64,000 bases of DNA. Origin: Arthrobacter caoxuetaonis (lineage in GTDB: Bacteria; Actinomycetota; Actinomycetes; Actinomycetales; Micrococcaceae). The translations under genes and the position numbers were made by a program. The notes beneath the pieces were generated by a model. That model ran no database searches and was not told the DNA's origin. It was given only the letters and a program-made list of their open reading frames with translations. The DNA is taken from positions 3,224,001-3,288,000 of the forward strand of contig NZ_CP099466.1 of the NCBI RefSeq assembly GCF_023921125.1, read 5' to 3'. Positions 20,467-52,296 of this stretch are shown here, in pieces; the first letter of the stretch is position 1; each line of letters starts with the position of its first letter.

Positions 20467-20610
20467 AAACCTTCGGGGAGATAACGTCCCCTGCTGGGCG
20501 TCCGCCCAAACCTTCGGGGAGATAACGTCCCCTGGGGCGCTCCGAAAGAACGTTTACTCCCCGAGGGTTCGTCAAGCAGGGCGCTAAAGAACGTCAGCTC
20601 CCCGAAGGTT
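20467..20610. repeat. Two direct plus two inverted copies of a 22-26-bp motif, 41-bp period
   Basis: Direct copies at 20467-20492 and 20508-20533 (AAACCTTCGGGGAG core, then ATAACGTCCCCT). Inverted copies at 20548-20570 and 20589-20610, whose reverse complements read AACCCTCGGGGAG and AACCTTCGGGGAG followed by ACGTTC. The spacing is 41 bp in both arms. The whole block lies in the 213-bp gap between a hydrolase and a DUF3592 gene and could fold as a long interrupted cruciform. Confidence 0.85.
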
Positions 20611-20643
20611 GCACGAGTATTCCCGGACTGCCGGTATCCTGCC

Positions 20644-21378
20644 ATGGTGAAAAACAGTGACACCAGGCCGCAGGCGGACAGTGCGCCGACGGGGCCCAAG
20701 GCGTTCGTAGTACCCGAAGGCTGGACCCGTTCCCCTCACCGCAATACCAGCAAGTACGCCATGGAGGTGGCCTATGGCCGGCACGCATGGCGCGGAATCT
20801 ACCTAAACGACGGCGCCGGCAACGGCTACTTCGCCCCGGGGTGGAATGGGGTGCGGCTGGCGCGGAATATGCGCGTGGTGCAGCGTGCGACTGGTGCCCT
20901 GACCATTTTGTCCCTCCTGGTCTTCGGTGGCTGGACCGTAAAGACGGTACTCGACAACAGGGAGTACTACCGGCTCTCCGCTGAGGGGGTCCAGGTCCAG
21001 GCCCTGGTGCAATCGGTTTCGACCGAGACATCGACGCGGCACCCCAAAAACAGCGACCGGTCCTACACAACCAAGACAGCAGCTGTTGTCAGCTATTCGG
21101 TGGGCGGGGGTTCATTCTCGGGGACGGTGGAACACCGGTCCCACTCAAAAGACGGATATCCCGAACCTGAATGGCAGCCTGGGGAACTGGTGGAGCTGTA
21201 TGCCGATCCGGCTGCTCCCGAGAAAATCGTGGTTCTCAGCCCGTACCTTGAAGATCGGACCAGCCCCGTCAACGGCGCCACGTGGTTCTTGATGATCGCA
21301 GGCTTGGCGATATCGGCTGTTCCTGCGGCCATTTACTTCGTTGCCCGCAGCAGCCGGCGCAAGGCAGAAGCACTCTAG
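20644..21378 (+). CDS. DUF3592-type membrane protein
   Basis: 244 aa. A cytoplasmic N-terminus of about 80 residues, a membrane segment about 84-103 (TGALTILSLLVFGGWTVKTV), an extracytoplasmic part with the DUF3592 pattern (VVSYSVGGGSFSGTVEHRS, then PGELVELYADPAAPEKIV), and a second membrane segment about 217-236. Family members have no established function. There is no clear RBS before the ATG at 20644. Confidence 0.7.
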   Translation: MVKNSDTRPQADSAPTGPKAFVVPEGWTRSPHRNTSKYAMEVAYGRHAWRGIYLNDGAGNGYFAPGWNGVRLARNMRVVQRATGALTILSLLVFGGWTVKTVLDNREYYRLSAEGVQVQALVQSVSTETSTRHPKNSDRSYTTKTAAVVSYSVGGGSFSGTVEHRSHSKDGYPEPEWQPGELVELYADPAAPEKIVVLSPYLEDRTSPVNGATWFLMIAGLAISAVPAAIYFVARSSRRKAEAL

Positions 21379-21517
21379 TCCGTCGCCGGCCAGGGGGATG
21401 CAGGTTTTGACGGAACTGCGGTGTCCTGCCACGATCAGTCTGGGCATTCGCCGACGTCAACACGCCCATCCGCATTATGCGCCGCAGGATCCTGCGGCCC
21501 CTGTCCAGGAGGAATCT

Positions 21518-22213
21518 TTGTCGCCACATCCCGCTTTGCAGGCTGTTCTCTGGGATATGGACGGCACGCTCGTGGACACCGAACCGTATTGGTTCGCCGC
21601 CGAGAAGGAGCTGATGGCCCGGTTTGGAGTTCGTTGGAGCGATGAGCAGGCCATGGAACTGGTGGGCAATGCCCTGCCCGATTCAGCCCGTGCACTGCAG
21701 GCGGCGGGCGCTGACCTGGGCATCCGCGAGATCCTCGATGAGCTACTGAAGAGCGTGGTCCGCGCGGTCCAGCAGAAGACTCCGTGGCGGCCGGGGGCCC
21801 GTGAGATGCTTGCCGATCTCCACTCCGAGGGGATTCCCTGCGCCATGGTCACTATGAGCGAGACCCTGCTGGCCCGCGTCGTCGCCGACCAGCTGCCCGA
21901 GGGCACTTTCCGCTTCCTTGTCACCGGGGAGATGGTCTCCCTGGGCAAGCCCGATCCGGAGCCCTACCTGCTGGCGGCGAAGCTGATGGGCGAAGAGCTC
22001 GGGGCATCCGTGGACCTGGACCGCGTGGTCGCGGTGGAGGATTCGCTTCCCGGCGTCGCCTCGGCCAAGGCATCGGGCGCTGTGACGCTCACCGTTCCGA
22101 ACGCCGTCGAGGTCCCGGAGCAGCCTGGCATCACGCGCTGGGAGACCCTGGCCGGCCGCACCGTTGCTGATCTGCAGGCGCTGGTTGTGGAGCGAAGCAC
22201 CCTCCGGGTTTAA
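21518..22213 (+). CDS. HAD-superfamily phosphatase
   Basis: 231 aa from a TTG start at 21518, chosen because AGGAGG lies 6 nt upstream and the protein then begins right before the catalytic motif. Motif I WDMDGTLVDTEPYWF (Asp13, Asp15), motif II VTMSETL, motif III Lys in SLGKPDPEPYLLAA and motif IV VAVEDSLPGVASAKASG are all intact, as in phosphoglycolate phosphatase/beta-phosphoglucomutase-like enzymes. The substrate is undetermined. Its TAA stop shares the palindrome TTAA with the convergent ferredoxin reductase. Confidence 0.88.
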   Translation: MSPHPALQAVLWDMDGTLVDTEPYWFAAEKELMARFGVRWSDEQAMELVGNALPDSARALQAAGADLGIREILDELLKSVVRAVQQKTPWRPGAREMLADLHSEGIPCAMVTMSETLLARVVADQLPEGTFRFLVTGEMVSLGKPDPEPYLLAAKLMGEELGASVDLDRVVAVEDSLPGVASAKASGAVTLTVPNAVEVPEQPGITRWETLAGRTVADLQALVVERSTLRV

Positions 22214-23493
22214 GGCATCTGGTTCGTAACCTCAGGCGGGTACCCGGGGAACCACTGATTCTTTGAGTCCCTGGCCAGGTTCGCGTCCGGCGGGATATCC
22301 ATCCCCTGGGCCAGGGCGTTTCGCACCGCCATGAAGTCCCGCGGAGTGTTGACGCAGTCCGCAGCAATGATCCGGCCTTCGCGGTAGTAGAGAACGGAGA
22401 ATCTTTCGCTCTCCGGATCCCCGCGCAGGACAGTGCTGTCGTGCCCTGCGGACAAGCCGGCGATCTGCAGTTTCAAGTCCCCCTGATCCGACCAGAACCA
22501 CGGCACCGTCCGGTACTCCGCTTCCAGGCCCAGCAGCGACCGCGCGGCGGTTTTCGCCTGTTCGACGGCGTTCTGGACACTCTCCAGCCGCACGTTCCCG
22601 CTGCCGTAGTCCGCGACGAATGGATTGGGCATGTTGGCACAATCCCCCGCAGCCACCGTGACACCGTCCGAGGCAACCGCGCTCGAATCCACCACAACGC
22701 CGTTGCTGACTTCCAGGCCAAGACGTTCGGCCAGTTCGGTGCGTGGAAGCACCCCCACCCCGATGACGACGACCTCGGCTGGGACTGTGGGGCCTTGAGC
22801 AAGCTCAACTCCTGTAACTCGGCCGTCTTCGCCAGCGATACGGACAATTTCCGCGTTCAGTAAAACTGTTGTTCCGCGGCGCCGGTGTGCCCAGAGATAG
22901 AAATCGCTCGTCGTTTCGGCAACCGCCCGGCCCACCAGCCGGGGCGCGGCCTCAATGATAGTTACTTGTTTGCCGGCCGCCCGGGCAGCGGTGGCCACCT
23001 CCAGCCCAATGAATCCGCCACCAATGACCGCCACGCTGCGGGCCTTGCCGAGCAAGCTGTGCAGGGACGCTGCCTGGTCTGCATCGCGCAGATAGCACAC
23101 ACCCTCCATCTCCGCCCCGGCAAGAGGGAGCTTCCGCGGAGCTGCACCGGTGGTCAGTGCGAGCCTCGTAAAAGGGAACACCCTCCCGCTCACGCCGACG
23201 GCGGTGCCGCCGTCGGTGCCCCTAGAGATATCCACGATTTCTTCCCCTGTGACCAATTCAATCCCCTGCTGGTCAAACCACTCCTCGGTTCGGAAGGTCA
23301 GCGAGGCTGCGGTCGCTTCCCCCTTGAGGAAGGCTTTGGACAGGGCAGGCCGCTGGTAGGGGAGGTAGGACTCTTCGCCGACCAGCACAATGGGCGCCGC
23401 ATCCCCGAGCTCCCGCAGGGTGGTAGCCAGTTGAACTCCGGCCTGGCAGTTTCCGATGATCAGGGTCGCGCCGGTGGAGTTGCTCGTTTCCAT
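22210..23493 (-). CDS. Ferredoxin reductase of the P450 system
   Basis: 427 aa from the ATG at 23493 (a GTG one codon upstream is possible). FAD/NAD(P) two-dinucleotide fold: ATLIIGNCQAGVQLATTLRE, PYQRPALSKAFLKG, SVAVIGGGFIGLEVATAA and GVTVAAGDCANMPN. These are standard for putidaredoxin-reductase-like partners of cytochrome P450. It is the last gene of the operon SBP-P450-ferredoxin-reductase, immediately after the ferredoxin stop. It would take electrons from NADH to the [2Fe-2S] protein. Confidence 0.92.
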   Translation of the reverse strand: METSNSTGATLIIGNCQAGVQLATTLRELGDAAPIVLVGEESYLPYQRPALSKAFLKGEATAASLTFRTEEWFDQQGIELVTGEEIVDISRGTDGGTAVGVSGRVFPFTRLALTTGAAPRKLPLAGAEMEGVCYLRDADQAASLHSLLGKARSVAVIGGGFIGLEVATAARAAGKQVTIIEAAPRLVGRAVAETTSDFYLWAHRRRGTTVLLNAEIVRIAGEDGRVTGVELAQGPTVPAEVVVIGVGVLPRTELAERLGLEVSNGVVVDSSAVASDGVTVAAGDCANMPNPFVADYGSGNVRLESVQNAVEQAKTAARSLLGLEAEYRTVPWFWSDQGDLKLQIAGLSAGHDSTVLRGDPESERFSVLYYREGRIIAADCVNTPRDFMAVRNALAQGMDIPPDANLARDSKNQWFPGYPPEVTNQMP

Positions 23494-23496
23494 CAC

Positions 23497-23811
23497 TTAG
23501 ACCTGCGTTTCCGGGATCCGGACCCTGATATCCACGTCTACCCGAAGCTGGCAGGAGAGCCGGCTGCCTTCTTCCCGCTCGGCTGCCGCGCAGTCAAGCA
23601 TCTCGTCCTCCACGGCGGAGATCTCCGGCAGCCTCGCCCGGTCACCTGGTTCGACGTAAACGTGGCAGGTGGCGCACATTGCGCTGCCGCCGCACTCGGC
23701 AACGATCCCCGGAACGCCGGAGGAGACTGCCGTGCGCATAACGCTGGCGCTTGCTTCGGCTTCGACAATCATTTCAGTGCCGTCAGGCTGGATATAGGTT
23801 ACTTTTGGCAT
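23497..23811 (-). CDS. [2Fe-2S] ferredoxin (putidaredoxin type)
   Basis: 104 aa. Cluster ligands appear as ECGGSAMCATC plus a fourth Cys in RLSCQL, giving the C-x5-C-x2-C-xn-C pattern of the adrenodoxin/putidaredoxin class. It lies between the P450 and the reductase genes and is separated from the latter by no bases, so the three form a complete electron-transfer chain. Confidence 0.93.
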   Translation of the reverse strand: MPKVTYIQPDGTEMIVEAEASASVMRTAVSSGVPGIVAECGGSAMCATCHVYVEPGDRARLPEISAVEDEMLDCAAAEREEGSRLSCQLRVDVDIRVRIPETQV

Positions 23812-23827
23812 CTTTGGCTCCGGGAGT

Positions 23828-25033
23828 TCAGACGGACGGGGTGAGGCGCAGCGGCAGGGAATCTAGTCCGCGGAGCGTGTTGTTGAGCTGTTGGATAGGC
23901 GCGCCGATAATCTCGATCTTCTGCACACGTCGGGCCAGTGCCGAGAGGATACACTCGCCCTCCATCCGTGCGAGCATCTGACCTAGGCAGGCATGGATAC
24001 CGAAGCCGAAACCGACATGGCCCATGGTTTTGCGGGTGATGTCGAAGACCTCCGGGTTTTCCCATCTACGGGGATCACGGTTTGCCGCGGCAATGAACAT
24101 TAGGATTTTGGCGCCCTCAGGAATTTTGATGCCTGAAAGTTCCGTGTCTCTGGACGTGGTGCGGAAGAACGTCTGGACTGGTGATTCGTACCGGATCGTC
24201 TCTTCGAACGCGGCTCGCGCCAGCGACGGGTCATTGTGCAGCAGCCGGTACTGATCCGGATGTTGGGCAAGACACAGCAGTGCATTGCCGATCCCGTGGA
24301 CGGTGGTGTCCACGCCGGCGGAAAGGAAGGAGCGCAGCAGCCTGGCTGAGTCCTCCGCTTCATAGCCAGCTTCGGCAGCGGCGGCGTGGATCCGGTTGCC
24401 CAAACCGTCCCCGCTGAGCGCCCCCGGCTGGCACTGCTCCATAACCCAGCCGGCGGCCTTTGACCCTCTTTCCATGGCCTTTTCGAAATGTCCGTTCCTT
24501 GGCCCGAACGTGTTAAAAACCATGGACCCGTAGGGCAGCAGGTTCTCGCGTCCTTCCTTGGGTAACCCGACAAAGTCAGGAAAGACCTCAAGCGGATATG
24601 CCTCAGCCAGGTCTCTGACTCCGTCAATATCGCCACTTGCCGCGACCTGTTCCACCATGCGATCCGCTCGTTCCTGGAAGCCGACCTTGAGCTCGCGAAG
24701 GAATTTGGGGCTCAGTATGCTCGTCACAACGTGCCGTGCCCTGGTGTGCTCCGGGGGATCCGCCTCCAGCAGGAGGCTCGGGGCCCGCCAGGGTTTGTCT
24801 TTGCGGAAATCCGTGATGCCGACGCCCGCCGAGGAAATGAAAGTCTCATGGTTTGAGAACACCTGCGAAACCTCGTCATGGCGGGCGACTGCCCAGACTT
24901 GGTAACGATCCAACCATGTCACCGGACCTGCTTCGCGCAACTGAGAATGGGCTTCGTATGGGTCGGCCAGAAAGGTATCGGCGAACGGGTCCAGATCGAG
25001 AACCGGGATATCGGATTCTGTTGTTGCAGTCAT
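23828..25033 (-). CDS. Cytochrome P450, CYP199-like (p-substituted benzoate oxidation)
   Basis: 401 aa. Heme-binding loop GFGFGIHACLG with Cys349, I-helix AGVDTT (239-244) and ExxR at 278-281. Long stretches recall CYP199A enzymes of Rhodopseudomonas, for example SSAGVGITDFRKDKPWRAPS and HGIGNALLCLA. Residues Arg83, Ser86 and Ser235 lie nine positions before CYP199A4 Arg92, Ser95 and Ser244, which bind the substrate carboxylate. This predicts 4-substituted benzoates such as 4-methoxybenzoate as substrates, with O-demethylation as the likely reaction. The assignment rests on remembered family sequence, not on a search. Ferredoxin and reductase follow in the same operon. Confidence 0.88.
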   Translation of the reverse strand: MTATTESDIPVLDLDPFADTFLADPYEAHSQLREAGPVTWLDRYQVWAVARHDEVSQVFSNHETFISSAGVGITDFRKDKPWRAPSLLLEADPPEHTRARHVVTSILSPKFLRELKVGFQERADRMVEQVAASGDIDGVRDLAEAYPLEVFPDFVGLPKEGRENLLPYGSMVFNTFGPRNGHFEKAMERGSKAAGWVMEQCQPGALSGDGLGNRIHAAAAEAGYEAEDSARLLRSFLSAGVDTTVHGIGNALLCLAQHPDQYRLLHNDPSLARAAFEETIRYESPVQTFFRTTSRDTELSGIKIPEGAKILMFIAAANRDPRRWENPEVFDITRKTMGHVGFGFGIHACLGQMLARMEGECILSALARRVQKIEIIGAPIQQLNNTLRGLDSLPLRLTPSV

Positions 25034-25041
25034 GTGTCCTC

Positions 25042-25989
25042 CTAGTCCGCGAGCAGTGGACGGGTGTCCAATGTGGTGTCGATGATCTTGTATTTGTGCA
25101 TCAGATCTGCAGTTTTCTGCAGCTGATCACCGTCGAGGTTGCCCTGGAAACTGGGCATTTCGATTTGTTCCACGACTTCTGCGGGGACCTTGGTAAAGGT
25201 GGGGACCAGCTCAACCAGCCGCGGACGGTTGTCCTGGAGTTCCTCCGCTGATACAGCAATGGCCTTGCGGAAACCTTCGACTGCGTCGGGGTTCTCCTGC
25301 AGGAATTGTTCCGTCGTGAGCCATCCTGCCACCGGCATTCCGTCGACCGGCCCAGTGAACAGGTTTGAGATTTTGACGAAGCCAGCCGCTTCCGCACTGG
25401 CCTGGAATGGCTCAACCTGCCAGATGGCGTCCACAGCTCCGCGCTCCAGGGCTGCCTGCATATCCGGGTATGGCATCTCGATCAGGTCCACGGCCGAAGA
25501 ATCCAGTCCGGCATCCTCAAGCAGCGCGTAGACGGCGACGGAACCGATGTTCTGGAGATTGTTCACCGCGAATGTCTTGCCGGCGAGATCCTCTATCCCG
25601 GTGATGCCTGAATCCTTAGCCACAAAGATTCCGTGGTCGGCCGCGCCGACGTCGTTCCCGGAAATGAAGCGCACCGGCAGCCCCTGCTTTACCGCCAGCA
25701 GCGCCGAGGTGTAGTTGGCATAGGTGACGTCGACGCCGCCCGAGACCAGGTTTGGGATCGCGGCGGCCCCACCCTGAGTCTGGACGAGTTCGACTTCGAG
25801 GTCTTCGGCAGCAAATAGGCCATTCTTCTCCGCATGCACCGCGGTAGAGGTGTGCACCAAAGGGAAATAGCCGACCTTCACAGTTACGTCTGATGCCGCC
25901 TGCGAAGACCCGCACGCGGCTAGCCCCAGCGTTGCTGCAGAAAGAGCCGCGATTGTGAAGTAACGCTGGAAATTTCCGCGTGCAATCAT
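25042..25989 (-). CDS. NitT/TauT-type ABC substrate-binding lipoprotein
   Basis: 315 aa from the ATG at 25989 (AAAGGA 6 nt upstream). Lipoprotein signal with lipobox LAAC. The SsuA/TauA/NMT1-like fold is visible in VKVGYFPLVHTSTAVHAEKN, VSGGVDVTYANYTSALLAVK and DLAGKTFAVNNLQNIGSVAV. It is the first gene of the P450 operon, 9 nt before the P450 start. No permease or ATPase gene accompanies it, so it must use a transporter encoded elsewhere or work as a sensor. The likely ligand is the P450 substrate (an aromatic acid), by context only. Confidence 0.85.
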   Translation of the reverse strand: MIARGNFQRYFTIAALSAATLGLAACGSSQAASDVTVKVGYFPLVHTSTAVHAEKNGLFAAEDLEVELVQTQGGAAAIPNLVSGGVDVTYANYTSALLAVKQGLPVRFISGNDVGAADHGIFVAKDSGITGIEDLAGKTFAVNNLQNIGSVAVYALLEDAGLDSSAVDLIEMPYPDMQAALERGAVDAIWQVEPFQASAEAAGFVKISNLFTGPVDGMPVAGWLTTEQFLQENPDAVEGFRKAIAVSAEELQDNRPRLVELVPTFTKVPAEVVEQIEMPSFQGNLDGDQLQKTADLMHKYKIIDTTLDTRPLLAD

Positions 25990-26125
25990 CGTTTTCCTTT
26001 CAAAGGGCGCCTCATTGCGCCTGATCAATGTCCTGCTAATAAGCGGTTTTCAGATCGAACCCCCTCGCCCGAGTATGAGATGTGTCACAATGCTGGCTCC
26101 AGCTAGTTTCCGTTGAAAGGAAAAT

Positions 26126-27001
26126 ATGGCCAACGGTTCTTCGGGGCGGTCAGCACTCAGCAGGATTATGCAGATTCTGGGCACCTTTGACGTAAATTCC
26201 GCATTCCTTACCGTGTCCCAGCTGTCACAGCGAAGCGGTCTGCCGCTCGCAACTACACACCGGGTGGTGTCGGAACTCGAGCAGTTTGGCTTGCTTGAAC
26301 GGGAACGGGACAAGACTTATCGGATAGGCGTACGCCTGTGGGAAATCGCCTGCCGTACACCGGGTGCCCTGGGGATCCGTGAAATAGCCATGCCCTATCT
26401 TCAGGAAATCCACTTCGCCGTGCGGCAGCATGCCCAGCTGGGCATCCTCCAAGGCCATGATGTGCTCTTCCTGGAACGACTTTCGACCCGGAACGCCGTT
26501 GTGAATGTGACGCTCATTGGCGGGCGGCTGCCCCTGCACGCCTCCTCCAGCGGACTGGTTCTCCTCGCGCACGGGCCCGGCAGTCTCCAAGATGAGGTAC
26601 TTTCCTCAGAGCTCGTGAAATACACAAAAGATACGGTCCAGAGTCCGGCGCACCTCCGCCGGTTGCTGGCCCAAATCCGCGAACAGGGCCATGCAGTCGG
26701 CAATGGCTTCATCCATCCCCATGCCCGGGGAATAGCCGTCCCGGTTTACGGGATGCAGGAAACGGTCGTTGCCGCCATCAGCGTGGTGATTCCCAATGAC
26801 GCTACTCCGACGCTTCCGACGGTACGCCTGCTAAAGGACGCCGCCCACCAGGTTTCAACGGCGTTGCGGGCCGCCTACCTACCGCTAGGCGACCCCCACG
26901 ACCCCCAGTCGACCGTTGGCGGCAAATACCGCACTCTGGTGAACTCCTCCATGAATTCCATGGACTTCTTTGCGCGGCACCGGCAGAATCATTCGCTGTA
27001 A
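26126..27001 (+). CDS. IclR-family regulator of the P450 operon
   Basis: 291 aa, ATG at 26126 with AAAGGA upstream. N-terminal wHTH (ALSRIMQILGTFDVNSAFLT, then LSQRSGLPLATTHRVVSELE) and C-terminal effector domain (IREIAMPYLQEIHFAVRQHA, GIAVPVYGMQETVVAAISVV). It is divergent from the SBP-P450-ferredoxin-reductase operon across a 136-bp shared promoter region, which makes it the probable regulator. IclR proteins of aromatic catabolism usually bind the substrate or an intermediate. Confidence 0.9.
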   Translation: MANGSSGRSALSRIMQILGTFDVNSAFLTVSQLSQRSGLPLATTHRVVSELEQFGLLERERDKTYRIGVRLWEIACRTPGALGIREIAMPYLQEIHFAVRQHAQLGILQGHDVLFLERLSTRNAVVNVTLIGGRLPLHASSSGLVLLAHGPGSLQDEVLSSELVKYTKDTVQSPAHLRRLLAQIREQGHAVGNGFIHPHARGIAVPVYGMQETVVAAISVVIPNDATPTLPTVRLLKDAAHQVSTALRAAYLPLGDPHDPQSTVGGKYRTLVNSSMNSMDFFARHRQNHSL

Positions 27002-27017
27002 GTATGCGAAGTCGCGG

Positions 27018-27374: not shown

Positions 27375-27455
27375 GGTCCGGCACTGTAGCCCGGGTCAGC
27401 GGGAGGAAACAGGGGCGGCCGGAATATCCGCAGTGCACCGGACGCTGACACCAAC

Positions 27456-28475: not shown

Positions 28476-28484
28476 TCCGAGGGT

Positions 28485-35700: not shown

Positions 35701-35763
35701 CAGCTCGGCGGCACGGGATTCCCGGATTTGCTACCTTGGAATCAGGGCCCGCACACCCGGCCC

Positions 35764-35804
35764 CCGGACGACGGTTCAGTACCCGGCACGCGACAAGACT
35801 GGCC
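35764..35804 (+). promoter_or_regulatory. Guanidine-III riboswitch
   Basis: A 41-nt segment matches the guanidine-III (ykkC-III) class as in Thermobifida fusca. It has CCGGACGA at the 5' end (35764-35771), GTACCCGG (35779-35786) and GACAAGAC (35792-35799) ending in GGCC. CCGG 35764-35767 can pair with CCGG 35783-35786 (P1). The segment around 35773-35780 pairs with 35798-35804 (P2, one bulged U), which gives the class pseudoknot. The AAAGGAG of the SMR gene follows at 35805, so control of translation is expected: guanidinium binding opens expression of the exporter. Confidence 0.88.
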
Positions 35805-35817
35805 AAAGGAGCTAGCC

Positions 35818-36755: not shown

Positions 36756-37060
36756 GATTCCCCCTGAGATAGCTGCTGGCTGTTGGGGTTCACCTAAACA
36801 GGCATCAGCGGACGGGGCAAGCTTTGCGCGGTTGTGTGGGAACCCCGACCCGCCCCGGGGCGCGGGGCAGTTCCCTGCACTTTGGGACATCCCTTCCGCT
36901 TTGGGACATTCCTGCGCGGCATCACAGCAGGAATGTCCCAAAGTGGCGGGGATGTCCCAAAACGCCGTCGTTACTCGCGGGAAGGGTGTGCCCCCCCCCG
37001 GTAACACCCGTCACAACCGGCGGGAATCCACGCCGGAACCCCCGCCGGAACCCGAGCGGC
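36756..37060. other. Gene-free region holding the 19-bp-period repeat cassette
   Basis: 305 bp between two minus-strand genes. It contains the TTTGGGACAT repeat cassette (36880-36961), a run of nine C (about 36992), and two GCCGGAACCC units (37041-37060 area). No start with an RBS or coding-like frame was seen in it. Confidence 0.6.
36880..36961. repeat. Two direct plus two inverted copies of TTTGGGACAT, 19-bp period
   Basis: Direct copies CTTTGGGACATCCC (36880-36893) and CTTTGGGACATTCC (36899-36912). Inverted copies GGAATGTCCCAAAG (36930-36943) and GGGATGTCCCAAAA (36949-36962). The spacing is 19 bp in both arms. The outer pair shares ACATCCC and the inner pair ACATTCC, so the block is one long stem whose arms are each an internal duplication. 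Confidence 0.88.
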
Positions 37061-38587
37061 CTAGCGGCGCGCAGCCTCGGGGAGGCTGGTGCCCGTCTCG
37101 ATGAAGCGCTGGTGGAAGGCGAGGGACTCGTCGAGCAGGTGCGGCGTGTGCTTGCCGACGCTCTCGCGGCTGGCCCGGTCGAAATAGTCCTGCAGCAGCG
37201 GCTGGAAGTCCGGGTGGGCGCACTTCTCGATGATCGTCCGGGCACGCTGCTTCGGGGAAAGCCCGCGCAGGTCCGCCAGGCCGCGTTCGGTGATGATCAG
37301 CATGGTGTCGTGCTCGGTGTGGTCCACGTGGCTGGCCATCGGCACGATTCCGGAGATTTTCCCGCCCTTGGCCGTACTCGGGGACATAAACGCGGAGAGG
37401 AAGCCGTTGCGGGCAAAGTCTCCGGAGCCGCCGATGCCGTTCATCATGGCCGTGCCGCCCACGTGGGTGGAGTTCACGTTGCCGTAGATGTCCGCTTCGA
37501 TCATGCCGTTCATGGCGATGCAGCCCAGCCGGCGGATCAGTTCCGGATGGTTGGAGATTTCCTGGGTCCGCAGGATGATCCGCTTGCGGTAGAAGTCGAT
37601 GTTGGAGTTGAACTCCTCAATCCCGGCCGGGCTCAGCGAGAAGGAGGTGGCCGACGCCACCCGGATCACGCCGTCGCGGATCAGCTCCAGCATGCCGTCC
37701 TGGATCACCTCGGTATAGGCGGTGAGTCCGGTGTAACCGGCGCCGGAGAGGCCTGCCAGCACGGCGTTGGCGATGTTGCCGACGCCGGACTGCAGCGGCA
37801 GGAGCTTGTTGGTCAGCCGTCCGGCCTTGATCTCGGATTCGAAGAAGTCCAGCAGGTGCCCGGCGATCATCTGCGAGGTTTCATCCGGCGCAGCGAAGGG
37901 CGTCATCCGGTCCGGGGCGTCCGTTTCGACGACGGCGATCACCTTTTCCGGATCCAGGCGCAGGTAGGGCTCACCGATCCTGTCGTCCGGGTTGACCAGC
38001 ATGATCGGCTTCCGGTGCGGGGGCAGCGCTGTGCCGTAGTAAACGTCGTGCATCCCGTCCATCGCGGCAGGCTGCTGCATGTTGACCTCGAGGATGATCT
38101 TGTCCGCCTGCTCAATCCAGGTCTTGTTGTTGCCCACCGAGGAGGAGGGGATGAGGCTGCCGTCCTCGTTGATCCCGACGACCTCGATAACGGCCAGGTC
38201 GATGTGTCCGTAGAACCCGAACCAGGTGTACTGGGCCACGTGCCCGAGGTGGATGTCGATGTATTCGAGTTCGCCGTCGTTGATCCGCTTCCGCAGGGTG
38301 GGATCCGACTGGTACGGCAGGCGAAGTTCCATGCCGCCGGCCTGGGCGAGCACGCCGTCGAGCTCCGGGGCGGTGGAGGCGCCGGTGAGCACCTTGATTT
38401 GGAAGTCCTCGCCGCGGGCGTGCGCTTCTTCCATCTGGGCGGCCAGGGCACCCGGCACAGCCTTGGGATAGCCGGCTCCGGTGAAGCCGCTCATCGCCAC
38501 CGTCATCCCCGGTTTGATCATCGCGGCTGCCTGCTCGGCAGTCATCACAAGTTTGGAGAGTCCCGGGTGGGAAATACGGTCGCGCAT
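37061..38587 (-). CDS. Acetyl-CoA hydrolase/succinyl-CoA:acetate CoA-transferase
   Basis: 508 aa from the ATG at 38587 (AAAGG 8 nt upstream). Class I CoA-transferase features: GMTVAMSGFTGAGYPKAVP near the N-terminus, LPLQSGVGNIANAVLAGL (263-280), the catalytic glutamate Glu293 in AYTEVIQDGML, and GGSGDFARNGFLSAF. This group (AarC/Cat1/ScpC-like) moves CoA between succinate and acetate or propionate. It probably links acetate to the TCA cycle. It is divergent from the APC permease across 189 bp. Confidence 0.92.
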   Translation of the reverse strand: MRDRISHPGLSKLVMTAEQAAAMIKPGMTVAMSGFTGAGYPKAVPGALAAQMEEAHARGEDFQIKVLTGASTAPELDGVLAQAGGMELRLPYQSDPTLRKRINDGELEYIDIHLGHVAQYTWFGFYGHIDLAVIEVVGINEDGSLIPSSSVGNNKTWIEQADKIILEVNMQQPAAMDGMHDVYYGTALPPHRKPIMLVNPDDRIGEPYLRLDPEKVIAVVETDAPDRMTPFAAPDETSQMIAGHLLDFFESEIKAGRLTNKLLPLQSGVGNIANAVLAGLSGAGYTGLTAYTEVIQDGMLELIRDGVIRVASATSFSLSPAGIEEFNSNIDFYRKRIILRTQEISNHPELIRRLGCIAMNGMIEADIYGNVNSTHVGGTAMMNGIGGSGDFARNGFLSAFMSPSTAKGGKISGIVPMASHVDHTEHDTMLIITERGLADLRGLSPKQRARTIIEKCAHPDFQPLLQDYFDRASRESVGKHTPHLLDESLAFHQRFIETGTSLPEAARR

Positions 38588-38776
38588 TAATGGCCTTTCA
38601 CAGAACGAATCCATCAACCCTAACCGCAGGTGAGCCGAACCTCACACTCCGCCCCTCCGCCAGCGGAGCCCTCCCTGCGGCCGAAGTTGGCGCAGGGGCT
38701 TCCGGGTATGCCCGGAGAAGACGATACTTCTCCACATCATTGCGTTCCAGGCATTCCACGCACTCCAGGAGCCGAT

Positions 38777-43925: not shown

Positions 43926-43940
43926 TAGGCGACCCGAACT
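43926..43940 (+). promoter_or_regulatory. Motif shared with the mntABC promoter (candidate Mn operator)
   Basis: TAGGCGACCCGAACT here and TCGGTGCCCCGAACT at 53905-53919 agree at 12 of 15 positions. Both lie 20-40 nt before the start codon of a manganese-type importer. A shared MntR-like repressor site is inferred. Confidence 0.45.
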
Positions 43941-43960
43941 CGCGGTGCTACGTTGGCAAT

Positions 43961-45229: not shown

Positions 45230-45295
45230 CTTCAGTCCAGCGTTCCCGTGCAGTAGCTGGTCGAGCCGCTCGCCAGGGCCCCGAAAGCCGCTCGG

Positions 45296-46177: not shown

Positions 46178-47130
46178 CGTTGGGTTCCTTCCGGTGCTGC
46201 GGTGTCTGCCGGGACTTCCCTGCCGGTCAGGGTCAGGAACACGTCGTCCATGGTGCCGTGGCGGAACTCGAAGTCCAGGACGTCGTCGCCGTGCCGTTCC
46301 AGGATGCGGCGGGCGGTGTCTGCGGTTTCGACGCCGATGCGCACCGCCGCGCTGTCCCCGTCCTTGAGCTGCCCGCCCAGTTCCAGGACCAGTGCGTCGA
46401 GGCCGGGCCGGTTGCGGGTGGTCACGGTGAGGATGCTGCTGGAGTACTCCGACCGCAGCTGGGCCGGGGTGCCGTCGGCGATGATCCTGCCGGCGTCGAT
46501 GATGCAGACCCGGTCCGCTTCCTCGGTTTCCTCCATGTAGTGCGTGGTGAGGAAGACCGTGAGCCCGTGCGCATCCCGCAAATCGTGGATGGTTTTCCAG
46601 ACGATCGCCCGGCTGGCCGGATCCAGGCCCGCCGTGGGCTCGTCCAGGAAGATGATCGGCGGGGCGTGAAGCAGTGCCCTGGCAATGTCCACCCGGCGGC
46701 GCTGCCCGCCCGAATAGGTCCCGTAGCGGCGGTCAATGAACTCCCTCAGCTGAACGAGTTCCGCTAATTCGTTGATCCGCGCCTCGTTCTTCGCTGAGTC
46801 CGGGGAGTAGAAGCGTGCGCGGACGCGCAGGTTCTCGCGGCCGGTGAGCAGCGGGTCCAGGACAGAATCTTGGAAAACGACGCCGATGTCCCGCCGCACG
46901 CGGTCCCCGGCCGTGCGCACGTTGTGTCCGGAGACCTCCGCCGATCCGGCATCAAAGGGATTGACCGTGGTCAGGCATCCGATGGTGGTGGACTTTCCCG
47001 CGCCGTTAGTGCCCAGGAACGCGAAGACACTGCCTGCTTCGACATCGAAACTGATGTCGTCGACGGCAGTCTTCGGCCCATATTTTTTCGTCAAGCCCCG
47101 TACCGAGATGGCAGGCTGGTTCGCCGTCAC
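46174..47130 (-). CDS. ABC exporter ATP-binding protein (DrrA-like)
   Basis: 318 aa, GTG start at 47130 with AAGGAG upstream. Walker A LGTNGAGKST, signature YSGGQRRRVDIA, Walker B IIFLDEPTAGLD, H-loop TTHYMEE. The C-terminal domain (SILTVTTRNRPGLDALVLEL, then DVLDFEFRHGTMDDVFLTLTG) is the DrrA-type accessory region. It is first in a two-gene operon with the ABC-2 permease. Confidence 0.93.
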   Translation of the reverse strand: MTANQPAISVRGLTKKYGPKTAVDDISFDVEAGSVFAFLGTNGAGKSTTIGCLTTVNPFDAGSAEVSGHNVRTAGDRVRRDIGVVFQDSVLDPLLTGRENLRVRARFYSPDSAKNEARINELAELVQLREFIDRRYGTYSGGQRRRVDIARALLHAPPIIFLDEPTAGLDPASRAIVWKTIHDLRDAHGLTVFLTTHYMEETEEADRVCIIDAGRIIADGTPAQLRSEYSSSILTVTTRNRPGLDALVLELGGQLKDGDSAAVRIGVETADTARRILERHGDDVLDFEFRHGTMDDVFLTLTGREVPADTAAPEGTQR

Positions 47131-47184
47131 CGTGCTCCTTTTGAAAGTCGTCCGCAGAATCCCGGCGGACGGGAGCAGCAGAAA

Positions 47185-47219
47185 GCCCCCTGACCGGAAA
47201 GACTATCCGACCAGGGGGC
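47185..47219 (-). terminator. Terminator of the penicillin-binding protein gene
   Basis: GCCCCCTG (47185-47192) pairs with CAGGGGGC (47212-47219). Read on the minus strand the stem is followed by TTTCT. It lies 43 nt after the PBP stop and separates that gene from the ABC exporter operon. Confidence 0.7.
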
Positions 47220-47261
47220 CCTGCGTCCTGACGTGGAGTTTTTTGAATCCAGCCGGCTGGG

Positions 47262-49616
47262 CTACGGGGTGGCGCCGGGGCTCGGCGTCACGGCTCCCCC
47301 TGCTTCAGGCGCCGGAGACGCGGCGGGTTCTGTCGTTTCGACAGCAGGCGGCGGTGCTGCCGGGGGCGTGGGCGTCGCCTTCGCGGGACGCGGCACGGCA
47401 GTAGCCGACGGCTTCGGTGCAGTCTCCTCGTCCTCTTCTGCCTCTTCCGACTCGGAGGGGGACGGGCTCGGGCTGGGGTTGACCAGCAGGTTGCCCGGCG
47501 GGTTTGCGAACGGTTCACCCGGGTAGAGGCTGCCTGCCTGCTGCATGAACTTTGCCCAGGACGGAGCCGCGATCAGTGAGCCGTCAATTTCCGGGTAGAG
47601 GCGTCCGCCGATCTGCAGGCCGGACAGGGATTCGGTTCCGGCCTTCCAGTTGCCGATCCAGCTGGCCGTGGCCATGCCGGAGTTGTAGCCGATGAACCAG
47701 GTCTGCGAGCGGGAGTCGTTGGTTCCGGTCTTGCCTGCCATCGGCTGGAAGCCGTAGTTCAGGAGGGAGCCGGAACCGGACTTCATGACTTCCTGCGTCG
47801 CATAGTTCACGCCGCGTGCGGTTTCCTTGCTGATGACCTGCTCGCACTCGGGTTCGGGGACGTCATAGGTCTTGCCGCGCACATCGGTGACTTCCACCAG
47901 CGCGCGGGGTTCGCACACGTTGCCCTCTGCCGCGAAGCCGGCGAAGGCCTGGGCCATCGCCATCGGGGAAACGTCCTCCACGCCACCGATGAGGGCGGAG
48001 GGCTTCACTGAAAGCGGCTCTTCCTGACCGGAGGCGCTCTTGCCGTTGTGGACGCCCATCGATTCGGCAATCTCCATGATGCGGCACAGGTCCAGCTGCT
48101 TGGCGGTGGAGAAGGTGATGGTGTTCAGGGACTGCGCCAGCCCGTGGAGCACTGTGGCGTCGCCGTAGTTGGTGTCGCCGTAGTTCTGCGGAGTCCAACC
48201 CTCCGCCTCCCCGATCGGGTAGGCGCCGCCGTCGAGGCAGCTGGCCGTCCAGCGGTCGCCCTGCGGATACGTCTTCTTGCGGCCATCGAGCTGCGTGCCG
48301 AGCGACTTGCCCGCATCCACCCAGGCGGCCACGGTAAACGGCTTGAACGTTGACCCGGGCTGGAAGCCTCCGATGCCGCCCAGGCTCTTCGTGGGGTCGC
48401 CGTCCTGGTACTGGTCGACGTTGAAGTTCAGCATCGAGTCGCCGGGGTTCTCACCCGGGGTGAATCGGGTGTTCTGGGCCATGGAGAGGATGTTGCCGGT
48501 ACCGGGCTGCAGGCTGATCATCGAGTGCCCCACCTGGCCGGCCGTAGTATCCGGGTTGGCGGTTTCGTTGACGGCAGCCTGGGCAGCCTGCTGGACAGCG
48601 GGGTCCAGCGTCGTCTTGATCGTCAGGCCGGAACGGTACAGCACGGAACTGCGTTCCTCCGGGGTGTCCCCGAACTCTTCGCTGTTCAGGACCAGGTGTT
48701 CCACGTAGGAGCAGAAGTACGGCGCCTGTTCGGCGGCTACGCAACCGTTCAGGGTCGGGGTGATGTTGAGGTCCATCCCGGTGGCGATCGCGGCGTCGTA
48801 CTGCGCCTGATCGATCTTGCCGTGCTCCAGCATGGTGCCCAACACGAGGTTCCGGCGTTCCAGCGCCGCCTCAGGGTATACCTGGGGATCGTAGGCGCTC
48901 GGACCCTTGACCAAGCCTGCGAGCAGGGCGCTCTGCTCGATGTTCAGGTCCTTGGCATCGACGTTGAACAGATACTTGGCTGCGGCTTGAACGCCGTAGG
49001 TGTCACCGGTGAAGGAAACAATGTTCAAATATCCCTCAAGGATCTCTTCCTTGCTCATCTCGTTTTCCACGGCGATGGCCAGGCGGACTTCGCGGACCTT
49101 GTCCGAAATGTTCTTGCTGCCGTTGAGGACCGCTTCTTCGCCGCGTTCCCTGGCCCCGTTGGCCAGCACGTTAGTGACGAACTGCTGCGTGATGGTCGAG
49201 GCTCCGCGGTTCGTTCCGGAGGACACGTTGCTGGCAATGGCGCCAAAAATACCCTGCACGTCTACGCCGCCGTGCTCGTAGTAGCGGTAGTCCTCAACGG
49301 AGAGCAGCGCATCGACCATGTGCGGAGAGATCTGGTCGAGGGTAACCGGCTGGCGGTTCTCTTCATACAGGGTGGCGATCAGCGAATCGTCAGACGCGAG
49401 GATCCGCGTGGGCTGGGCCAAAGTGGCACGCTCCAGGTCCGCGGGAAGTCCGTCGAAGAACGTGATCGAGGCCGAAGCAGCGGATCCGGCGCCTGCCGCC
49501 ATGGGAACGAACAGCCCCGCGGTCAGCACGCCGCAGAGCACGCTGACTCCCAAAAAGGTGAGCAGGCGTCCGAAGGTGGTTGCCGTGGTGAACACGGGAG
49601 GTTTACGTGCAGCCAT
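47262..49616 (-). CDS. Bifunctional penicillin-binding protein (transglycosylase/transpeptidase)
   Basis: 784 aa. One N-terminal membrane anchor (about 17-40). GT51 domain: SVEDYRYYEHGGVDVQGI (catalytic Glu) and GASTITQQFVTNVL. Transpeptidase: SxxK in PGSTFKPFTVAAW, SLNT as SxN-like motif, and KTG in MAGKTGTNDSRS. The last 60 residues are a Pro/Ser/Glu-rich extracellular tail (NPSPSPSPSESEE...), common in actinobacterial PonA-type PBPs. It polymerises and cross-links peptidoglycan. It stands alone, with its own terminator and no clear RBS at the ATG. Confidence 0.93.
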   Translation of the reverse strand: MAARKPPVFTTATTFGRLLTFLGVSVLCGVLTAGLFVPMAAGAGSAASASITFFDGLPADLERATLAQPTRILASDDSLIATLYEENRQPVTLDQISPHMVDALLSVEDYRYYEHGGVDVQGIFGAIASNVSSGTNRGASTITQQFVTNVLANGARERGEEAVLNGSKNISDKVREVRLAIAVENEMSKEEILEGYLNIVSFTGDTYGVQAAAKYLFNVDAKDLNIEQSALLAGLVKGPSAYDPQVYPEAALERRNLVLGTMLEHGKIDQAQYDAAIATGMDLNITPTLNGCVAAEQAPYFCSYVEHLVLNSEEFGDTPEERSSVLYRSGLTIKTTLDPAVQQAAQAAVNETANPDTTAGQVGHSMISLQPGTGNILSMAQNTRFTPGENPGDSMLNFNVDQYQDGDPTKSLGGIGGFQPGSTFKPFTVAAWVDAGKSLGTQLDGRKKTYPQGDRWTASCLDGGAYPIGEAEGWTPQNYGDTNYGDATVLHGLAQSLNTITFSTAKQLDLCRIMEIAESMGVHNGKSASGQEEPLSVKPSALIGGVEDVSPMAMAQAFAGFAAEGNVCEPRALVEVTDVRGKTYDVPEPECEQVISKETARGVNYATQEVMKSGSGSLLNYGFQPMAGKTGTNDSRSQTWFIGYNSGMATASWIGNWKAGTESLSGLQIGGRLYPEIDGSLIAAPSWAKFMQQAGSLYPGEPFANPPGNLLVNPSPSPSPSESEEAEEDEETAPKPSATAVPRPAKATPTPPAAPPPAVETTEPAASPAPEAGGAVTPSPGATP

Positions 49617-49872
49617 GATATGGGAGCATAACCCAGCATCCTAGGAATCCCGCGCTGATTGCGGCCCGATTACTGGACGGTAACGTTGCGCTTGAGCGCT
49701 TGTGGAGGATAATTGGGCACCCGCAGGAGTGACAGGTCTCATGTTTTTCAGTGCCGTTTTCAGGCCATGGACCCTCCCAGGAACTAATCTTCAGCACCCC
49801 ATCCCAGCGGCGGTCTGCCACTGCTAGACTCCTGCACACTGGATGCCCGGACCACCCCGGCCGAGGAGAATC

Positions 49873-50463
49873 ATGGCTCGATTACTCCACGATCTGCGCC
49901 GCCTGCGGAAGTCCGCGGGCGGGCGGCTCAGGACACCGCCGCCAACGCGCGGCAACCATGAAGAAATCCATGCACGGCTGAGTGCTGCCATGAGTTCCGC
50001 CCAGGCTACGGGCCGAATGCTGGACGAGCAGGAACGGGTCGCAACCGAGGCAGCAGCGCACTTCGCCTCTGTGGCTGAGGCCTACCGGCTGCGCCATGAA
50101 GCAGTGGAGACGGTTATGTCCGGAACCTCGGAGCCATCCACCTCAGTCCTTACCCTCGCTGGAACAGCCCGCAGGATGCACAGCCTCGCCCACGACAGGC
50201 AGGAACTCGCTGCATCACACCTGGACGACGTGCGTTCCCGCAGGGAACGGGTCCAGGAGCTGATTTCCGATCTGGTCAAGGCGCAGGCCCAGCTCCGTCT
50301 AGCCGTCACTGTTGAACAGAGCAAGGCAAGGCTGGACGGATTGGGCGGACCTCCAGCTGCCCTCCCCGGGCCCTCCAGCTCATTCGATGAAGAACTCCGT
50401 GAGGCCACCCGGCTGGCGCGGGAAGCAGAAGCCCTGGCAGAACTGAAAGGCGGATGGGCATGA
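49873..50463 (+). CDS. Coiled-coil protein, 196 aa
   Basis: ATG at 49873 with GAGGAG upstream. The sequence is almost entirely charged and helical (ARLSAAMSSAQATGRMLDEQ, SHLDDVRSRRERVQELISDL, DEELREATRLAREAEALAEL), with no membrane segments, so long coiled coils are likely. No family recognised. It overlaps the downstream membrane protein by ATGA. The two are co-translated and may act together at the membrane. Confidence 0.65.
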   Translation: MARLLHDLRRLRKSAGGRLRTPPPTRGNHEEIHARLSAAMSSAQATGRMLDEQERVATEAAAHFASVAEAYRLRHEAVETVMSGTSEPSTSVLTLAGTARRMHSLAHDRQELAASHLDDVRSRRERVQELISDLVKAQAQLRLAVTVEQSKARLDGLGGPPAALPGPSSSFDEELREATRLAREAEALAELKGGWA

Positions 50464-51044
50464 GTTCAGAGTCCAGCGTTCGTGTAGGTGTTCCGTTCAC
50501 CCCGCCCCGGTCGTATTCCGAGAAGGCCGTCAGCCGCATGGTTTTTGTGGCTGCGGCCTTCGTCATTTTTGGTGGCTTCAACGTGATCGCCGTCCTCCTT
50601 GCCGCCTTGCTGATTGTCTACCCTCTGCTCATCGTGCGGGAGCGGCTGATACTTCGCCCCCGCAGGGAGGAAACCGAGACAGCGGCACTGAACGACGCCG
50701 TCGCACAGTATTTCCCGGACGCTCCCAAGGTGCAGCGCGAGCAGTGGCGGGCACTGATGACCGCTCGCAAGGGCAAGGCGTTCCGTTTCCGGGACGACGT
50801 CGGCGGCGAAGTTCGCATGGTCCGGACCGGCCGTGCCGCCCTTGCCGGGCACACTGCCATGGCCGGCCAGCCGATGCGGCCGCACAGCGCCAGGCGCACC
50901 GAGATCGAAGTGACCTGCCGCTACGGGGATGTGGGCCTGGCAGATTTCGATACGGTCATGACGGCCTCGGGCCGCGACCCCAACATTGCCCGGGCGATCG
51001 CGGAAGTCCGCCGCGGTTACCGCCAGGGGCGGGAGTCGGCTTAG
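50460..51044 (+). CDS. Membrane-anchored hypothetical protein, 194 aa
   Basis: ATG at 50460 chosen for the ATGA overlap with the preceding stop; the ATG at 50454 is too close to the AAAGG. A double hydrophobic segment (about 26-58, MVFVAAAFVIFGGFNVIAVLLAALLIVYPLLIV) is followed by a soluble C-terminus with a conserved-looking EIEVTCRYGDVGLADFDTVM. Unknown function. It forms a two-gene operon with the coiled-coil protein. Confidence 0.65.
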   Translation: MSSESSVRVGVPFTPPRSYSEKAVSRMVFVAAAFVIFGGFNVIAVLLAALLIVYPLLIVRERLILRPRREETETAALNDAVAQYFPDAPKVQREQWRALMTARKGKAFRFRDDVGGEVRMVRTGRAALAGHTAMAGQPMRPHSARRTEIEVTCRYGDVGLADFDTVMTASGRDPNIARAIAEVRRGYRQGRESA

Positions 51045-51075
51045 GGCGGGATGTGGAGGGCAAAGCTGCGGGGCC

Positions 51076-51190
51076 GCCGGACGCCGGGTGCCAGCGGCAA
51101 GGGGCTGCCGGACGGCGGGTGCCGCGGCGAGGGGCTGCCGGACGGCCGGTGCCGGCCGCGAAGGGCTGGACGGCGGGTGCCGGCGGCGGG
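51076..51190. repeat. GC-rich imperfect tandem repeat, about 30-bp unit
   Basis: Four units with GCCGGACGGCGGGTGCCG-type cores start near 51076, 51107, 51137 and 51165. They differ by a few bases each. The stretch is non-coding and lies between the membrane-protein stop (51044) and the terminator at 51222. Confidence 0.75.
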
Positions 51191-51221
51191 GGGCCGCGAT
51201 TCACGAGGAGCCGCCACATGG

Positions 51222-51250
51222 AAAAGGCCCGCTTGAGGGCGGGCCTTTTT
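51222..51250. terminator. Bidirectional terminator
   Basis: AAAAGGCCCGC (51222-51232) pairs with GCGGGCCTTTT (51239-51249) around TTGAGG, with six T on the plus strand and TTTTCC on the minus. It ends the plus-strand two-gene operon and the minus-strand tRNA-Ala. Confidence 0.9.
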
Positions 51251-51256
51251 TGGGTG

Positions 51257-51329
51257 TGGAGCTTAGGGGAATCGAACCCCTGACCTTTTCATTGCGAACG
51301 AAACGCTCTACCAACTGAGCTAAAGCCCC
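51257..51329 (-). tRNA. tRNA-Ala (anticodon CGC)
   Basis: The reverse complement folds fully. Acceptor GGGGCTT/AAGCTCC (one G-U), D-stem GCTC/GAGC with AGTTGGTA loop, anticodon stem TTTCG/TGAAA with loop TTCGCAA (anticodon CGC, codon GCG), variable AGGTC, T-stem AGGGG/CCCCT with TTCGATT, discriminator A73. The CCA end is not encoded. A strong terminator follows 7 nt downstream. Confidence 0.95.
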
Positions 51330-51516
51330 GGGTCCTGCATCGTGCCGGATGACCGGCCTTGTTAGGCTACGCCGATTCTAGGCACGCGAACAGTCTGCGG
51401 GCAAAATGCAGGCGTCCGGTTGAGGCCCGCTGGTGGCGTGGCTAGGCTCGCACAACGCACGGCCGGGTTCCGCCGCGTTCCCGGCTACCTGTCGTCGAAC
51501 ACCTAAGGAGCAGAAG

Positions 51517-51924
51517 ATGAGCCTGATCAAAGACATGCTGACTTCCCACCCGGCCGGGAACTCGAATGTAGACATGGATGCACTCGCCGCCTGCATCGAA
51601 ACTTGTTTTGACTGTGTCCAGACCTGTACAGCCTGTGCCGATGCCTGCCTGAGCGAGGACATGCTCGGCGATATGGTCAGCTGCATCCGGGCCGACCTGG
51701 ACTGTGCAGAAATCTGTTCGGCCACCGGCCGGGTCCTGGCCCGTGCCGGCATGGGCTATGCCTCGGCTGCGGACCTCGTCCGGGCCTGCGCCGCTGCCTG
51801 CCGCCGCTGCGCGGAGGAGTGCGAGCAGCATGCGTCCGCCCATGACCACTGCCGCATCTGTGCCGAGGCCTGCCACCGCTGCGCCGCCGCCTGCGATGCC
51901 CTGCTCCTGACGATTGGCTCCTAG
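51517..51924 (+). CDS. Cys-rich four-helix-bundle copper-storage-like protein (Csp/DUF326)
   Basis: 135 aa from the ATG at 51517 (AAGGAG 7 nt upstream). It contains 18 cysteines, many as CxxxC or CxxC in helices (ETCFDCVQTCTACADAC, CAAACRRCAEEC, CRICAEACHRCAAAC), the hallmark of copper-storage proteins that line a four-helix bundle with Cys thiolates and bind many Cu(I). No signal peptide, so a cytosolic Csp3-like protein is likely. It stands alone after the tRNA. Confidence 0.88.
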   Translation: MSLIKDMLTSHPAGNSNVDMDALAACIETCFDCVQTCTACADACLSEDMLGDMVSCIRADLDCAEICSATGRVLARAGMGYASAADLVRACAAACRRCAEECEQHASAHDHCRICAEACHRCAAACDALLLTIGS

Positions 51925-52196
51925 CTGGCGTTTGGTGTGGTTCCGGCTGGCCCGCCAGGAAGCTCCTTCCGGCGGATGGCACTGCGGCTGGGGCCAGGAC
52001 GGCGGGCGGCCTTGGCCTGGGACCAACCGGCCGAGAGTTCATTCTTTGCCTGAAAGGTGTACTGCCCTGAGGACCTCCCTATACCAACACGGCTCTTCCG
52101 TGAGCTTTCCCAGCCCTCGTTACCCCTGTAACCCTGTGTGACCCCATTGGCCACACCCGTAACGAGGTGTGGGAAACCACGCAGCGCCGACCCGGG

Positions 52197-52296
52197 ATTC
52201 GCTGCGTTTTGTCGGAATCGCTGCATCTTGGGACTGGGTTCGCTGCACTGTGGGAAAAAACCACCGACCTGGGACAAGATTTACTGCAGTTTGGGA
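52197..52296. repeat. Four direct copies of a TTCGCTGCAnTnTGGGA motif
   Basis: Copies at 52197-52216 (most diverged), 52216-52233, 52238-52255 and 52279-52296. The aligned CGCTGC cores are 19, 22 and 41 bp apart. The last two copies are each followed by a run of A (TGGGAAAAA). Unlike the cassettes at 20.5 and 36.9 kb, all copies point the same way. Confidence 0.75.

Follow-up and report, generated by a model that had tools for sequence, protein, structure and literature searches.

The window analysed here, positions 3,224,001 to 3,288,000 (64,000 nt) of contig NZ_CP099466.1 of Arthrobacter caoxuetaonis, contains several families of dispersed, non-coding, multi-site elements, and the arrays that represent them are real. 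An element is usually composed of one or more forward (F) sites, a centre of fixed length and one or more reverse (R) sites, with a period of 41 or 19 bp and a centre of 60, 52 or 56-57 bp. Period and centre are nearly fixed within each family while the letters of the spacers drift. The reading given most weight here, with a probability of roughly 0.45 and based on sequence comparison, is that the arrays may be phased protein binding sites symmetric about a dyad, forming a dispersed intergenic class similar to the repetitive extragenic palindromes (REPs) and the bacterial interspersed mosaic elements (BIMEs).

Three site arrays were located in the window, named class A (20468-20610), class B (36874-36968) and class C (52197-52381). 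The gaps between consecutive 5' ends are 41, 60 and 41 bp in class A, where the two forward units are 97% identical over 31 bp, and 19, 56 and 19 bp in class B. An earlier note, made from the sequence alone, had described two direct copies followed by two inverted ones with equal spacing in both arms, and the gaps of 41/41 and 19/19 bp confirm it. It had also reported a third motif with steps of 19, 22 and 41 bp; these steps were found between the CTGC anchors of class C, together with a central hairpin and a reverse copy that had been missed. Its statement that the motifs differ holds for the sequences of class A and class B and fails for its second and third motifs, classes B and C, which look related and have the common core CTGC-CTTTGGGA. 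A de novo scan for the F-F-R-R (FFRR) layout with nearly equal periods returned exactly the class A and class B arrays in the 64 kb, and no array in 20 dinucleotide shuffles of the window; a comparison with shuffled sequence had been set beforehand as one that could refute the proposal, and for the window it did not. Looser settings added a third hit, a low-complexity GC-rich cluster at 52426. GC-rich tandem repeats with GGCGCCGGGC-like units adjoin the class C array at 52426-52550.

The occurrence of class A was studied with a sequence-only model built from 58 copies of the single unit, which, spanning one unit, says nothing on spacing. Both a genome-wide search for this motif and a comparison with related strains had been proposed in the earlier note. 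In the genome of the window (3.93 Mb, two contigs; G000 below, other G codes denoting the genomes compared and L codes the loci) 41 matches were obtained at an expectation value (E) up to 5; 35 of these belong to nine loci and have E no higher than 0.06, the remaining six being isolated and weak. Eight of the nine loci have the order FFRR or FFRRR and one has RR only. Clear arrays were present in five of the 59 genomes compared (29 genus members, 8 genomes from other genera of the family and 22 of the order), all five being genus members, namely G000 with 35 matches, G019 with 64, G025 with 25, and G023 and G005 with 15 each; the copies used for the model came from four of these five genomes, none from G005. 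Ten other genomes gave one or two weak matches each, with E of 0.007 or above. No match to class A was found among plasmid or phage sequences, class B had none among plasmid sequences, and class H, introduced below, gave just three weak matches to Streptomyces plasmids, with 24% cover.

Spacing was counted between the 5' ends of neighbouring units no more than 110 bp apart. The class A set comprised 26 loci including the window, picked for holding the motif and not for its spacing, with 121 units found by score alone and no spacing rule. The same-strand gaps were 41 bp in 58 of 62 cases (40, 42, 42 and 50 in the others), all 26 forward-to-reverse gaps were 60 bp, and the one reverse-to-forward gap was 62. 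An apparently unrelated motif, class H, forms arrays in Arthrobacter sp. H35-D1; it was first met in a motif-blind FFRR scan, with periods of 15 to 70, of 80 relatives' loci and the window. Its 17-bp core has 39 exact copies in the H35-D1 genome among the matches listed; with three mismatches the counts by strand, 82 and 96, are little above the 69 and 66 of a reversed control. In 15 H35-D1 loci fetched for the motif (127 sites), 60 of 69 same-strand gaps were 41 bp (the others being 30, 31, 31, five of 42, and 52) and all 22 forward-to-reverse gaps were 52 bp. Class A', a second motif of G000 present in three fetched loci, gave gaps of 41/60/40, 40/60/40/38 and 40/60. The first eight class B arrays measured had 19 bp within the arms and 56 or 57 bp between them, the register of the units having been set manually where both of two frames offset by one base scored. 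Of the eight, L272 shows only one clear forward copy, and both L272 and L282 came from the layout scan. The orientation order is F(n) followed by R(m), a reverse-to-forward step within 110 bp being met once in class A and once in class H, and the arms hold one to six copies each, with sites of 19-26 bp, in the arrays seen. Classes A, H, A' and B are each near-fixed in geometry, in agreement with the earlier proposal of a conserved layout with different sequence, and the spacings outside the window are not random.

Class B was searched with a model of the whole array, built from eight sequences and including base pairs, which can also find unrelated hairpins. Matches with E up to 0.01, mostly on both strands, occurred in 28 of 29 genus members among the matches listed, and matches with E up to 1e-6 in 5 of 120 genomes of the family, four of them of the genus; G023 and G005 had none of the latter. 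In the 14 class B arrays used from new loci the motif was present. The distance from the last forward to the reverse anchor in class C is 92 bp in the window, L010 and L015, and 55 bp in L025. L010 and L015 (G000 contig C1, about 226.8 and 1401.4 kb) hold long class C arrays in which forward CTGC anchors are numerous and follow one another mostly in steps of 18-23 bp. When the motif-blind scan was run on 400-kb samples, G001 gave two 19-bp arrays, G000 two low-complexity hits, G003 one coding-like hit, and G035, which belongs to another genus of the family, one palindromic array and one coding-like hit. L344 of G035 carries, at about 4130-4280, a palindromic ACGCAAnTTTTGCGT tandem array with a 33-bp period, about three helical turns.

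Sites and spacers evolve differently. Cut to a standard 143 bp, 23 class A arrays align in 143 columns. In class A, sites are alike at 0.805 within an arm and 0.680 between arrays, and the corresponding values for spacers are 0.369 and 0.359. At five loci common to species, 16 ungapped comparisons of arrays cut to 143 bp, one comparison involving two arrays of one genome, gave a divergence of 0.20 for sites vs 0.41 for spacers and centre, although one locus, L242, enters three of them with an uncertain correspondence between arrays and with a 40-bp gap that places its last unit one base out of register and so inflates the differences. Between species the spacers therefore change about twice as fast as the sites, with their length almost unchanged. 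In L236 and L331 the site subtypes of the left and right arms differ. Spacers unlike within an arm, together with differing arm subtypes, argue for recognition of class A rather than recent duplication. Class H spacers reach 0.563 within an arm vs 0.356 between arrays, as after recent tandem duplication.

Genes called by our own codon-usage script served to place 54 arrays of classes A, A' and H. None lies inside a called gene; an overlap with a called start, seen for two of the arrays, amounts to 1 and 11 bp. The intergenic gaps were tandem in 25 cases, convergent in 25 and divergent in 4, vs 68, 15 and 39 for the controls, which were gaps of 120 bp or more taken from the same loci. When the gaps were reduced manually to independent ones, with two mixed loci scored as tandem, the numbers were 19, 13 and 4, with Fisher p values of 0.018 for the divergent and 0.0023 for the convergent class. 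The divergent deficit taken for H35-D1 had p 0.24.

In the window the class A array follows an alpha/beta hydrolase gene matched in all 29 genus members, and the first 330 bp past this gene were inspected by eye in 22 of them. G019 and G025 possess a class A array there, with both reverse units keeping the peculiar letters of G000, in which the forward units are almost identical to one another. A degenerate class A array occurs in G005. G023 and G010 have no array and a short gap followed by a similar next gene, with no target duplication visible by eye. In L382 (G020) and L383 (G024) the place is taken by a class-B-like array of CCTCCG-TTTTGGGA units, so that the hydrolase gene is followed by class A in four species, one of them degenerate, and by a class-B-like array in two. 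In the other 14 of the 22 genus members no array was seen by eye. The class B locus, whose acetyl-CoA hydrolase gene (37061-38617) shares 96% identity (best segment) with the Arthrobacter koreensis gene and 95% with the A. gandavensis gene, was compared in 11 relatives; the flanks were different and no array was seen by eye.

Features of the arrays and adjacent genes in the window (positions counted from its first letter; the 5' end of a minus-strand unit is its higher coordinate)
Feature	Position	Strand	Remark
Class A unit F1 (about 26 bp)	20468..20493	+	
Class A unit F2	20509..20534	+	41 bp past F1
Class A centre	20535..20543	.	dyad about 20539
Class A unit R1	20544..20569	-	peculiar letters also at the orthologous locus of G019 and G025
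Class A unit R2	20585..20610	-	41 bp past R1; peculiar letters kept in G019 and G025
Class B unit F1 (19 bp)	36874..36892	+	
Class B unit F2	36893..36911	+	
Class B centre, CTGC...GCAG	36912..36930	.	hairpin loop region
Class B unit R1	36931..36949	-	tail letters matching those of F2
Class B unit R2	36950..36968	-	
Class C forward copy 1	52197..52215	+	CTGC anchor 52202
Class C forward copy 2	52216..52234	+	anchor 52221
Class C forward copy 3	52238..52258	+	anchor 52243
Class C forward copy 4	52279..52299	+	anchor 52284
Class C central hairpin CTGCGCC-A-CGCAG	52327..52339	.	by eye also in L010, L015 and L025
Class C reverse copy	52358..52381	-	anchor 52376, 92 bp from last forward anchor
Alpha/beta hydrolase gene (PF20408)	19747..20430	+	class A array comes after its 3' end
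DUF3592 gene	20644..21378	+	next downstream of class A array
Acetyl-CoA hydrolase/transferase gene	37061..38617	-	class B array comes after its 3' end

If the arrays are phased binding sites, each unit of the 41-bp families would be the putative site of a sequence-specific protein, and copies phased at about four helical turns would favour a cooperative assembly on both arms around the dyad. The intergenic position, almost always behind the end of at least one gene, makes it most likely that the complex would act at such places, where it might, for instance, form a boundary on both sides against read-through or transcription twist; this is the least certain step, because an over-representation of convergent gaps is confined to H35-D1. 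For the 19-bp family, a long hairpin with a conserved inner stem would form from the palindrome as well. Phased protein sites predict the near-fixed 41 bp, the free spacers and the recurrence with another motif, which hairpins by themselves do not predict. It is tempting to extend this to geometry-coded elements, in which paralogous DNA-binding proteins, each with its own sites, would use a common 41-bp repeat and a fixed dyad, the spacing being the conserved signal and the families being interchangeable by place; such an extension is doubtful at present.

Several observations weigh against the binding-site reading. At 10.5 bp per turn, the helical phasing put forward in the earlier note agrees for 41 bp (3.9 turns) and not for 19 bp, which is 1.8 and not a whole number of turns, so that 19-bp neighbours would not quite face the same side. 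Array L242, with its 40-bp gap, departs from the period, and the presence of clear class A arrays in so few genus members means that they are not essential to the genus. For class A and A' the gaps were 15 tandem, 2 convergent and 1 divergent vs 42, 10 and 24 in controls, so that convergent gaps were not in excess (p 1.0) and divergent ones were weakly depleted (p 0.035); the excess of convergent gaps comes from H35-D1 alone (4, 11 and 3 vs 26, 5 and 15, p 0.0001). Grouping of neighbour genes in 40 loci pinned no protein to the sites. Base pairing may also be present in class A: the covariation score was 0.190 vs 0.151 in shuffles, the cells changed on both sides were 75 vs a mean of 60.1 (a number reached by 5 of 500 shuffles), and inner F:R partners agreed at 0.751 vs 0.667 for partners taken from different arrays. 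In ten G000 arrays the inner partners (0.769) were as alike as same-arm neighbours (0.735 and 0.773). Related arrays inflate these class A pairing statistics; the pairs with changes on both sides numbered 23 vs 22.7, and in the 29 class A and A' arrays the inner partners, at the 0.751 given above, were less alike than same-arm neighbours (0.789 and 0.781). Finally, the compensatory inner-stem changes of class B are explained by a hairpin at least as well as by protein sites.

The last point leads to an explanation in which the arrays would be transcribed from either side and fold, as RNA (or as single-stranded DNA), into long stem-loops. Such hairpins would terminate or protect mRNAs, a role also proposed for REPs, and the spacing would result from symmetric stems. 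Class B is nearly palindromic, and here the hairpin is likely to matter. In 20 arrays its covariation score of 0.181 vs 0.133 was reached by none of 500 shuffles, 77.1% of the cells were paired vs 74.5 in shuffles, and the double changes concentrate at the inner-stem columns 34-38 and 26; the letters of the tails match at 0.825 for inner partners vs 0.562 for non-nested ones. Against this, outer partners match at just 0.367, the count of pairs changed on both sides (19 vs 17.6, reached by 150 of 500 shuffles) does not stand out, and 12 of the 20 rows were collected with the base-paired model, which biases the set toward paired examples. Four of the eight class B arrays found independently of that model have identical inner tails. 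The native sequences of the window are predicted to fold at -68 (class B) and -76.9 kcal/mol (class A), and within the units short inverted repeats only were seen by eye. The spacers of classes A and H are not complementary and the arms may be of different subtypes; moreover, a hairpin requires arms of equal length but does not call for a single period and a single centre length in all arrays. Intrinsic terminators (GC stem plus T run) were absent from the class A and class B regions, and in the class C region one was found vs 0.5 expected. As a general account of the arrays, hairpins seem unlikely.

Mobility offers another explanation, namely non-autonomous elements resembling REPs, REP doublets (REPINs) or miniature inverted-repeat transposable elements (MITEs), in which the sites would belong to a transposase at two abutted ends and the geometry would simply be copied. 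By eye L010 and L015, which one genome carries at a distance of 1.17 Mb, look like close copies; spacer matches between H35-D1 loci amounted to 40 pairs vs a shuffled mean of 3.98; one H35-D1 array has a partial copy 16 kb away; one class A pair has 14 of 15 spacer letters common to two loci; and the array is missing between the same genes in some congeners. In array L244 of G025 (6075-7481) an IS30-type transposase gene (integrase core plus HTH_38) lies between the arms. The end of the IS30-type element starts 33 bp past the inner forward unit both in L244 and in L075 of the same genome, where it runs from 1532 up to the contig end, which cuts off the other arm; the insertion point is about 3 bp from the dyad. 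Insertion sequence (IS) elements are reported to insert at the symmetry axis of REPs (PMC1525189). Other data do not favour mobility of the arrays themselves. The Y1 transposase PF01797, of the REP-associated tyrosine transposase (RAYT) type, had no match in G000, the control being positive in 5 of 14 genomes; a target duplication is not apparent at the class A locus of the window; class A spacer matches between loci stay at the shuffled level (6 pairs vs a mean of 5.86), and class A spacers are as unlike within an arm as between arrays. The H35-D1 copy includes the left flank and may be an ordinary segmental duplication. Taken with these data, mobility appears quite unlikely. An artefact of chance or low complexity in GC-rich intergenic DNA is highly improbable: low-complexity or coding-like FFRR hits did occur in 6 of the 80 relatives' loci (apart from the window and L105) and in the 400-kb samples of G000 (two), G035 and G003 (one each), but none of the 20 shuffles gave an FFRR array and the exact spacing recurs in several species.

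The earlier note knew no named element of this form. The nearest named ones are the REP and BIME elements, from which the layout differs, and a literature search over titles and abstract openings, covering few subscription papers, returned no such arrays under a name. REPs are short dispersed extragenic clustered units near 3' ends, mostly of tandem or convergent genes (PMC3733652), and they usually exceed 100 copies per genome, the BIMEs being regularly spaced units in alternating orientations (PMC2817692). The present arrays resemble both in being short, dispersed, extragenic, in both orientations, close to 3' ends and targeted by IS elements at the axis. Unlike BIMEs, they put forward before reverse copies, with a period fixed at 41 or 19 bp and free spacers; unlike REPs, they reach far lower copy numbers, e.g. 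nine class A loci in G000, and unlike REP or REPIN systems with a RAYT they occur in a genome that has no Y1 match. The CGTC-REPs are dispersed palindromes with no dedicated transposase, having 8-9-bp stems and mainly head-head pairs (PMC3733652). CGTC is present in many class A units, but the class A unit has 26 bp, no such stem by eye and rigid multi-copy arms. Repeat counts for an Arthrobacter genome are given in one paper, and such repeats may be counted there (PMC12306157). The repetition of sites at helical spacing, inverted around a centre, is also known from other systems. Multi-site operators, iterons and transposon ends usually occur once or a few times per replicon, beside the gene of their own protein. 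Class A differs from all three in having nine loci in one genome with no common neighbour gene family.

A gene family shared by the neighbourhoods of 40 loci outside the window was considered as the source of the binding protein and rejected, the genes tested being from large, widespread families. In the largest group 13 related genes are spread over 11 loci, and the three tested are ATP-binding cassette (ABC) transporter ATPases. Several smaller groups, among the 25 largest, have 4-5 genes in 4-5 loci; those tested, by one or two members each, proved to be an AMP-binding enzyme, a zinc dehydrogenase, a major facilitator superfamily (MFS) transporter, a short-chain dehydrogenase and a GntR/FCD regulator. 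The gene of such a GntR/FCD regulator stands directly before the array in L334 (5762-6496) of G019, and relatives occur in three other array loci; it could be of interest as a member of a DNA-binding protein family, yet nothing singles it out as the binder. An Rfam scan of the window gave no match over the gathering score for the arrays, the only hits being tRNA and a guanidine-III riboswitch. The riboswitch lies at 35742-35807 on the plus strand and scores 56 bits vs a gathering score of 36. The skew between origin and terminus at 20 sampled G000 stretches, examined for placing the loci, gave no clean picture.

What function dispersed intergenic palindromes serve is an old question. The distances in the present arrays are fixed while the sites differ between families, and this suggests that the spacing of the sites is read by something in the cell. 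Conserved spacing, free spacer letters and recurrence with an apparently unrelated motif make the choice between DNA recognised by protein and an RNA hairpin directly testable through the length of the spacer.

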